Positions 5,731 to 30,599 of a stretch of DNA of 64,000 nt are shown here, piece after piece. The translations under genes were made by a program, and so were the position numbers. The DNA comes from Microcaldota archaeon (GTDB lineage: Archaea > Micrarchaeota > Micrarchaeia > Norongarragalinales > Norongarragalinaceae). The stretch spans positions 62,001 to 126,000 of the forward strand of contig JACQQD010000012.1 of the NCBI GenBank assembly GCA_016207165.1, read 5' to 3'. The notes beneath the pieces were generated by a model. That model did no database searches, was not told the DNA's origin, and saw nothing but the letters and a program-made list of their open reading frames with translations. Positions within the stretch are counted from its first letter, which is position 1. The number at the start of each line of letters is the position of its first letter.

Positions 5731-6480
5731 TCAACGGAATCCGTGTTTTTCCTCGGGAAACTTTTTCTTCCGAACGTCCCGGACAAAGGATTCCACCGCG
5801 CTGCGGCTTTGGCCCTTGAGGTCGGCAAAGCGCTTGACGAATTTCGCGTCCAAGTCCGTGTAAAGCCCCAGCAAGTCCGGCAACACCAGCACCTGCCCGG
5901 AGCAATGCGGGCCCGCTCCAATGCCAATGGTCGGAATTTCAAGGGATTCCGTGATTTTCTTGGCCAACCCCGTCGGAATGCACTCCAACACGATCCAATC
6001 GCAGCCCGCTTTTTCCAGCGCCCGCGCGTCCTTGAGGATGGACTCGGCGGCTTGCGGGTCGCGGCCCTGGACTTCGTATTTTTCCAGCCATTGAGGCGTG
6101 AGGCCGACGTGGCCCATGACGGGCATGGTCCGCCAAACCTTGGAAACCGCCTTCAGGGTGGCGGGAGTCGCCCCTTCCATCTTGACGGCGTACGCCCCGA
6201 CGTCCTTGAATTTCTTGGCGTTTTGTTCCGCCTCCTCGACGGAGTCGTAGGAGTGAATCGGCATGTCGGCGATGACCGGCGTAATCTTTGCGCCCCGGCA
6301 CACGGCCTGGGTGTGCAACAGCATGGTCTCCAAGGACACGTGCTTGGTGTCCAAATCACCGTAGACCACCATGCCTACCGAGTCGCCGACCAGAAAATAG
6401 TCCGGCACGCCGTCAAGCGCCTTGGCAAAGGCGTAGTCGTAGCACGTTACCAACGCCAAGGGTTCGGACACAATAATCAC
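5731..6480 (-). CDS. panB: 3-methyl-2-oxobutanoate hydroxymethyltransferase (ketopantoate synthesis)
   Basis: Transfers a hydroxymethyl group from methylene-tetrahydrofolate or -tetrahydromethanopterin to 2-oxoisovalerate, giving ketopantoate. The 249-aa TIM-barrel protein has ALVTCYDYAFAKALD, FLVGDSVGMVVYG (metal-binding Asp), KMEGA, MGHVGLTPQ and GIGAGPHCSGQVLVLPDLLG. It is slightly shorter at the N-terminus than typical. It overlaps the ketol-acid reductoisomerase gene (stop 6477) by four bases, so these two genes are coupled and likely act in sequence. Confidence 0.95.
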   Translation of the reverse strand: MIIVSEPLALVTCYDYAFAKALDGVPDYFLVGDSVGMVVYGDLDTKHVSLETMLLHTQAVCRGAKITPVIADMPIHSYDSVEEAEQNAKKFKDVGAYAVKMEGATPATLKAVSKVWRTMPVMGHVGLTPQWLEKYEVQGRDPQAAESILKDARALEKAGCDWIVLECIPTGLAKKITESLEIPTIGIGAGPHCSGQVLVLPDLLGLYTDLDAKFVKRFADLKGQSRSAVESFVRDVRKKKFPEEKHGFR

Positions 6481-29340: not shown

Positions 29341-29658
29341 GTGGACAAATACGCCAAGTTGCTGGCCAGCCTCGCCATTGACGCGCTGGGCTTCGTGGCC
29401 TTTGGGGCAACGGAGTTCGGCGACCTTTTATGGGCCCCCGTCTCCGCGCTTTGCATCGCGCTTTTGTACCACCGCGATTTTTACACGTTTTTGGGCTTTA
29501 CCGAAGAGATTCTACCCGGAGCCGACGTCGTGCCTACCGCCACCATCGCGTGGCTGGACGAGAACGGGTTCCTGAATATTTTCCACAAAAAGCAAACCTC
29601 CCATCGCCGAGAAGGGCCGCTTCACGGAAAAAACCGGACTATCACCCTGGCTGACTAA
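29341..29658 (+). CDS. Small membrane protein, 105 aa
   Basis: Two predicted helices (about residues 8-25 and 30-45) followed by a short soluble tail with DVVPTATIAWLDENG. GTG start at 29341 after an AATTAATAAA TATA-like sequence at 29307-29316. Divergent from the HerA-like gene; function unknown. Confidence 0.6.
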   Translation: MDKYAKLLASLAIDALGFVAFGATEFGDLLWAPVSALCIALLYHRDFYTFLGFTEEILPGADVVPTATIAWLDENGFLNIFHKKQTSHRREGPLHGKNRTITLAD

Positions 29659-29699
29659 AGAATAATTTTTATAAAAAATATTCCTATAAGAATATAGGG

Positions 29700-29937
29700 G
29701 CCTTTTTCTTTGCAAACCGCCACAGAACCATCGGGGCGATGAGGACACTAATCCGGTCGCCCCAGGGGAACCCAGGTTCCCCTTGGCACGCCCTGCGCCT
29801 CGACCCCTCCTGACGCACGATTTCACAAGATACGTTCTTTAAGCACGAGCCAAAAATCAATACGGGGCGATGAGGACACTGTCCCAGACCGAGTCAACAC
29901 TGTGACGACCAAGGTAGCTGCCTAGCCCCTTTTTTTC
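29700..29937 (+). ncRNA. Candidate structured RNA region with repeated 18-mer
   Basis: No gene lies in 29659-29921. A TTTATAAAAA element (29669-29678) could start transcription near 29700. CGGGGCGATGAGGACACT occurs at 29732-29749 and again at 29863-29880. The first copy is closed by GGGGCGA/TCGCCCC (29733-29739/29757-29763) and followed by a hairpin GGGGAACC/GGTTCCCC (29765-29772/29775-29782). The second copy's GGGGC pairs with GCCCC at 29925-29929, followed by T7, an archaeal-type terminator. ATGAGGA resembles a C box, but no clear D box is seen. Confidence 0.35.
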
Positions 29938-30599
29938 ATTTCCGGAAGCCGAAGCGCATGGCCCAAAAGGGCTTGAACAATCTGGTTGCGCGCCAACTCA
30001 TCCAGCGGGTGGCCGTCGGGGTGCAACACAAGCGCGCTGCGGTCACTGAAACGGGACACGAAATCCAAAAACGCATGCCACGCGTTTACGGGCGTCGGAC
30101 CCGCGGCCAAGTCGGACTGGTAGTGGACGGGTAAGTGATGCGTGGCCATACGCCATTCGGACTCCGACCCATCGTAGGCGTTGGTTCGCTTCAGTGCTAC
30201 GACGACTTGGGCCACGTCGTTGTGGGGGTCAAACCCGCGTGCCTGGGGACTCCGTCGGGGGTGCCGGTATGCCAGCGTCAATTCGTAATCATCCAGTGAA
30301 GCCAATTTACCTTTGAACGTCCAGGCGCGAACGGAGTCGCCTTTTACGACGTTGGGAAACCAGTGGTAAATGGATTGAAAGCGGCTGTGGTGTAGGCGGG
30401 GCGGATCCCTCGGCCAGGTGCGGCGCAGGTTGTCCAAAAGGTCACCCAAATCGTAAAATCCGTCCATTTCCAGGGTCGCGGAAACGCGCGCGCGGGCATC
30501 GCGGTTAAGTCCATCCAGACGCGAAAGCCGACGGGCGCCGTCTGACAACCGCCCTTGATGAGATGCCGGCCTTGCTGCGGGACGCTCTTGGAAATCCAT
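29922..30599 (-). CDS. Orphan protein, 225 aa
   Basis: Not recognised. Arg- and His-rich soluble protein, no membrane segment; blocks include SIYHWFPNVVKGDSVRAW and YRHPRRSPQARGFDPHND. Stands behind the HTH gene on the same strand with an 18-base gap, so may be cotranscribed with it, although a TATA-like ATACTCGTTTAT lies at its start. Confidence 0.55.
   Translation of the reverse strand: MDFQERPAARPASHQGRLSDGARRLSRLDGLNRDARARVSATLEMDGFYDLGDLLDNLRRTWPRDPPRLHHSRFQSIYHWFPNVVKGDSVRAWTFKGKLASLDDYELTLAYRHPRRSPQARGFDPHNDVAQVVVALKRTNAYDGSESEWRMATHHLPVHYQSDLAAGPTPVNAWHAFLDFVSRFSDRSALVLHPDGHPLDELARNQIVQALLGHALRLPEMKKRG
29930..29936 (+). terminator. Oligo-T terminator after GCCCC stem
   Basis: Seven T residues directly follow the 3' arm of the GGGGC/GCCCC stem; poly-T is sufficient for intrinsic termination in archaea. 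Confidence 0.4.

Follow-up and report, generated by a model that had tools for sequence, protein, structure and literature searches.

A dispersed folded mini-element that probably interrupts a guide RNA gene and is linked to apparently exchanged gene ends in one archaeal family

The window analyzed here, a 64,000-nucleotide (nt) stretch of a contig from a Microcaldota archaeon (GenBank assembly GCA_016207165.1, contig JACQQD010000012.1), contains a predicted guide RNA gene that appears to have been interrupted by a small, folded, dispersed element. All of the features described at this locus lie on the plus strand. The 18-mer CGGGGCGATGAGGACACT occurs exactly twice, at 29732-29749 (copy 1) and 29863-29880 (copy 2), with a spacing of 131 bases, and an earlier note on this DNA had taken the pair for tandem guide RNAs or an undescribed family. 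The repeat itself was borne out: 0/100 shuffles contained the 18-mer twice, even when up to 3 mismatches were allowed, and the genome-wide search that the note had proposed returned only the two known sites, with no third site at up to 3 mismatches in the whole 1.27-Mb genome. The structural details that it had listed are also present, namely, the stems GGGGCGA/TCGCCCC (29733-29739 and 29757-29763) and GGGGC/GCCCC (29864-29868 and 29925-29929), a hairpin between the copies in which 29764-29772 pairs with 29775-29783 (9 bp), a run of seven T residues after the second copy (29930-29936), and a gap of 12 bases between ATGAGGA (29870-29876) and CCGA (29889-29892). Taken as such, the predicted folds at the locus are unexceptional (fold energy z scores of −1.93 for 29715-29935 and −0.80 for 29860-29937), and the first stem is probably fortuitous, since its 3' arm belongs to the inserted element, where the segment P1a pairs with P1b as described below. 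Read from left to right, the locus consists of copy 1; five junction bases, AATCC (29750-29754), that mismatch the rebuilt copy; the core of the dispersed element (29755-29808; 75.7 bits with our element model, R1); a spacer (29809-29862); the guide RNA gene that begins with copy 2 (29863-29929); and the T run past its terminal stem, which on the sequence alone is a possible terminator.

A DNA search of 98 relatives divided this region into two unlike parts. The 3' part (approximately 29863-29930) matched single sites in other genera and families, and its alignment with seven relatives identifies it as a predicted box C/D-type guide RNA gene. The eight sequences have in common TGA-x-GA, ACTGTCCCAG, C-x-GA, a second TGA-x-GA, and GTA-x-CT; ACTGTCCCAG and GTA-x-CT are invariant in all eight, so that both guides are conserved across the relatives. 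With boxes named by alignment position, box C is ATGAGGA (29870-29876), the first guide is 29877-29888, D' is CCGA (29889-29892), C' is GTGACGA (29902-29908), the second guide is 29909-29920, and the D position holds CCTA (29921-29924), closed by the GGGGC/GCCCC stem. Boxes C, D', and C' are thus present with 12-nt guides; the D position reads CTGA or similar in several relatives, and because it is degenerate in the window, the activity of the second guide is uncertain. A sequence-only model of the gene, R2, found matches in 91/196 genomes, including 7/11 members of the family, and a single match in the window's genome. Copy 2 had no match to Rfam 15 at curated thresholds, and its matches to archaeal box C/D small RNAs were weak and below the gathering scores (sR44, expectation value [E] of 0.43; sR39, 0.74; sR-tMet, 2.9; sR9, 0.74); it resembles these Rfam families in box layout and size and differs from them in its guides and in the degenerate D box of the window. 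No significant site for either guide was found in 23S rRNA, where the best sites were equalled by 42/300 and 66/300 shuffled guides, and a model search of the window's genome matched no 16S gene. The 23S match itself (L079, G000:C8:1228-4623) covers 3,396 bases against 2,987 model positions and may hold insertions. An archaeal host is in line with this match to the archaeal 23S model, which also responds to bacterial sequences, and with proteins that we take for V-ATPase, thermosome, and UPF0147-like products. A 17-mer search of genome contigs returned 23 stretches, of which 17 are actinobacterial according to their titles and one belongs to a Thorarchaeota contig. The frame on the minus strand at 29922-30599, whose stop codon overlaps the last bases of the guide RNA gene, had no match among 59 other genomes, and neither it nor the plus-strand frame at 29341-29658 has a Pfam match.

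The middle part (29754-29811), in contrast to the 3' part, matched many sites in the window's genome, in two other genomes of its genus, and in genome G008 of the family. Model R1 found 65 copies in 6/117 related genomes, all of one family (12 in G000, 24 in G001, 9 in G002, 17 in G008, 2 in G006, and 1 weak copy in G005), and a 66th copy (L144, in G000) was found by DNA search and added manually. Among 301 genomes of the phylum, R1 matched five, all of them family members, and none outside the family; R1 searches of more than 40 genomes used stricter filters and missed weak copies, such as one of 28 bits beside the V-ATPase D gene in G001 (L160). Three patterns searched against viral contigs gave 0, 0, and 1 matches, the last (L218; 27 bits, within an open reading frame on a phage-like contig) being taken for chance, and phages and plasmids gave no match. 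Membership in a known structured RNA family was rejected, as there was no Rfam match over 29755-29808 at E up to 10 or in six further element loci at E up to 0.1.

The predicted fold of the core is an H-type pseudoknot in which P1 crosses P3. The arrangement 5'-P1a-CCCC-P2 hairpin-TGG-P3a-P1b-P3b-CCTC-tract can be parsed in 62/66 copies (two of the others do not parse and two have a 12-base P3 stretch); in the window, P1a is 29755-29759, P2 is 29764-29772/29775-29783, P3 is 29785-29788/29796-29799, P1b is 29789-29793, and the 3' tract is 29804-29808. P1 is formed by such different strands as CTAAG/CTTAG, GTAAG/CTTAC, GCAAG/CTTGC, GTAAT/ATTAC, and CGGAT/ATCCG and by GGTCG with CGCCC, CGGCC, or CGACC. 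Across all 48 distinct trimmed forms, which omit the P2 loop (plus three single bases in those of the A type) and one of which is probably off by one base, 91.2% of paired cells are complementary, compared with 74.9% in shuffles that leave the relatedness among copies in place and at most 65.8% when the strands are slid; 10/14 pairs change on both sides, with a covariation score of 0.334 versus 0.088. The 3' tract is a parallel complement of the P2 purine strand (GGGAG/CCCTC and GGAGG/CCTCC), with 12 A-T matches over positions 1 to 5 compared with a shuffled mean of 3.0 (0/5,000 as high). A parallel pyrimidine tract of this kind is the mark of a major-groove triple helix; we infer such a helix between the tract and P2 rather than take it as observed, because runs of C+ would need protonation. 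Three copies in G001 (L060, L061, and L130) share an extra hairpin stretch of approximately 60 nt in the P2 loop.

What ties these copies together beyond their fold is the sequence on either side of them. The order seen in the window, i.e., a stump, the element, and then the interrupted gene end once more, is found at most of the 66 copies. In 55/66, the sequence 5' of the element recurs 3' of it with a score above 99% of 780 mismatched pairs; minus-strand loci were oriented by a motif for this comparison, one short copy (G000:C8:6368) that failed the motif check was kept in the count, and the control contained a few high scores, up to 38.2. The stump ends 0 to 6 nt before P1a in 54/55 of these copies (31 at 0, 4 at 1, 2 at 3, and 17 at 4 to 6, the copy in the window being of the last kind), and the junction follows a loose pattern of a pyrimidine-rich triplet and four variable bases (T-Y-Y-N4): among the 31 copies without extra bases, T stands at −7 in 21, a pyrimidine at −6 in 26, and a pyrimidine at −5 in 28. 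The rebuilt side spans 27 to 199 nt (median, 60; n = 55), in disagreement with a relic of a miniature inverted-repeat transposable element, for which a short target duplication of fixed length was looked for. In 34/55 copies, a frame that continues past the junction has its start or stop within the rebuilt part, and a predicted tRNA lies within 250 to 350 nt of 16/66 copies, some only when an intron is allowed. Among the genes hit in more than one species are what we take to be V-ATPase D (G000 and G008) and an anthranilate synthase-like gene (G001 and G002), and presumably ThiI-like and UPF0147-like genes were hit in both G000 and G001. At L098, stump and rebuilt copy are identical next to the junction and differ further out. 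Some loci record repeated events, and L151 reads as three different N termini of one gene with a partial element match at 5823-5851. One copy (L095, G001:C11:708-761) lies at an intron position inside a predicted tRNA gene and has no flanking repeat; the gene is tRNA-Phe by ARAGORN in intron mode and tRNA-Ser by our reading.

Sister genomes provide the uninterrupted state. In G002, the same upstream gene (52% identical) and a downstream ArsR-type gene flank one C/D gene, and in G008 the upstream gene is present with one C/D gene; no element was found at either locus or at V-ATPase D of G002. The 90 nt before copy 1 can be aligned to the sequence that precedes the C/D gene in G002 (score of 23.5; 0/500 shuffles as high), whereas the spacer aligns neither with the sequence upstream of that gene (110/500 shuffles as high) nor with the region before copy 1 (160/500). 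Copy 1 is therefore best described, from these alignments, as the stump of the same gene that copy 2 begins, left in its native upstream context, and the element, the spacer, and the second gene start appear as additions at the native locus. The stretch 29660-29700 before copy 1 is AT rich, with a hairpin CCTATA-AGAA-TATAGG, and is partly common to G002.

The stump and the second copy appear to be distinct alleles rather than a duplication that has decayed, because the differences between them are mostly synonymous. The longest frame was picked blindly for this comparison (that of L087 was judged wrong), and over 34 coding cases, 6 of them without any coding difference, the differences fall 31/12/97 on the three codon positions. 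Differing codons are synonymous in 89/120 cases; random expectation is 24.7, and at most 40/120 was reached in 2,000 trials.

What the window contains, then, is one of a family of folded mini-elements that are associated with apparently exchanged ends of genes. We consider it probable that this is a nonautonomous mobile mini-element of approximately 54 nt that breaks into genes close to their ends and brings a replacement for the end in question. In the window, it would have interrupted the box C/D guide RNA gene 18 bases into its conserved start, leaving the stump behind the native upstream sequence, followed by the element, a short spacer, and a complete second gene. The mobile unit may comprise the folded core together with a gene end from another lineage, and the core would act as folded RNA or single-stranded DNA recognized by an enzyme in trans. 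Installation could proceed by break repair or recombination, with a gene end that is broken at a T-Y-Y-N4 site being repaired from a template that carries the core and the foreign gene end, so that the left side is native and the right side foreign; insertions would survive where a working gene is rebuilt. Such a break-repair model would explain the differing alleles, the identity on the junction side (through resection), and the placement at gene ends (through selection for rebuilt genes).

Several observations weigh against this interpretation. There is no repeat above the control threshold at 11/66 copies, and 12/55 rebuilt parts have no clear gene end and 9/55 no frame. As many as 31/120 differing codons are nonsynonymous, two stumps carry a stop, and in the V-ATPase D case it is the second copy rather than the stump that is nearer to G002. 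No allele could be identified as the donor; at the UPF0147-like gene, the alleles of G000 and G001 show only a weak cross-pattern, and a reciprocal exchange suspected there was only weakly supported when the alleles were compared. With regard to the fold, the third P1 pair cannot form in 22/48 forms, nor the fourth P3 pair in 12/48; the variety of pair types does not exceed that in shuffles (85/500); and individual copies show only a modest gain in folding over shuffled sequences (z of −2.0 to −0.9; −3.7 for one extended copy). Finally, no mobility enzyme was found in the searches described below.

The same data can be read as ordinary transposition with long target-site duplications (about 25 to 110 nt) that later diverged by mutation. 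Several flanking repeats are indeed perfect (38 nt at L101, 43 at L144, 49 at L125, 29 at L103, and 25 at L099), but the differences between stump and second copy are mostly synonymous even though the stump is no longer a working gene, and reverse transcriptase (RVT_1) is present in 0/12 genomes, a set without G008; we regard this reading as unlikely, and a retroelement was rejected on the same count. A TnpB-associated RNA of the IS200/IS605 type was also rejected, PF07282 being absent in G000 and G001 and present in G002, G003, G008, and others. It is still less probable that the copies are tiny integrative elements or remnants produced by a tyrosine integrase, with diverged attachment copies in gene ends. 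Gene ends and tRNA genes are typical integrase targets, one junction was used twice (at L109 in G008:C81, two consecutive elements, the second with a long extra hairpin stretch, lie behind the same stump end, CCCCAC), and PF00589 occurs in all four element-rich genomes (G000, G001, G002, and G008) versus 1/6 other family members searched. On the other hand, the same integrase family (approximately 50 to 63% identical) is found in G004, G012, and G013, where R1 finds no element; there was no R1 match in 12 integrase loci; and the targets have in common just the loose T-Y-Y-N4 pattern. Because all four element-rich genomes carry it, the integrase remains a candidate for acting in trans. We think it very unlikely that the core is a passive GC-rich hairpin repeat, itself immobile, that acts as a hot spot for the homologous exchange of alleles or as its end point. 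The alleles do differ on the two sides, and yeast mitochondrial GC clusters behave partly in this manner (PMC4478555), but the precise stump ends, the common junction pattern, the conserved fold, and the absence of the element from sister loci speak against it. The reading that grew out of the earlier note, a tandem pair of small guide RNAs belonging to an undescribed family, can hardly be the explanation: copy 2 does begin a conserved guide RNA, but copy 1 shares just the 18-mer and a weak flank with it, has no gene sequence past the 18-mer, and runs into the dispersed element, and the genome holds one R2 match.

The family can be placed among the small folded mobile elements, and there is a fair chance that it forms a kind of its own. 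No description of a comparable element was recognized in the open-access titles and beginnings of abstracts of PubMed Central (PMC), a search that excludes subscription papers and most preprints. Integron attC sites are recognized by their fold rather than their sequence, and the archaeal element may be recognized likewise; it has neither an array nor a cassette gene, and no search was aimed at attC boxes. The mitochondrial GC clusters and double-hairpin elements are, like it, short, GC-rich, folded mobile repeats without genes (PMC4478555 for the GC clusters) but are palindromic, whereas the archaeal element would be a pseudoknot that has a parallel tract and is accompanied by long copies of gene ends. 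The closest described analogue that we recognized is the hybrids formed in fungal mitochondria by mobile endonuclease open reading frames at atp6, atp9, cox2, and nad3, for which a horizontal origin has been proposed; these also have an insert near a gene end, a second end adjoining it, and two ends that differ in DNA (PMC3630166). The fungal inserts, however, encode endonucleases (about 1 kb at atp6) and sit at C-terminal ends in mitochondria (PMC3630166), and the archaeal core is approximately 54 nt long, noncoding, and located at gene starts, gene stops, and tRNA genes.

A bolder formulation, which we put forward tentatively, is that these copies represent a new class of selfish element in prokaryotes: a pseudoknot of approximately 50 nt with a triple-helix-like tail that would move as folded RNA or single-stranded DNA, break genes at T-Y-Y-N4 near their ends, and repair them with a carried allele of another lineage, so that its insertion into essential genes would cost little and alleles would be swapped between species. 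If our interpretation is correct, repeated RNA motifs can be insertion scars, which would be a warning in itself, and the question would arise of which enzyme recognizes the fold. A mobile element shorter than a tRNA would then reside in these compact archaeal genomes and bring with it the replacement for what it breaks. In this way the element would escape selection while leaving behind the stumps of the alleles that it replaced, and those stumps would directly document how alleles are exchanged among uncultured archaea.
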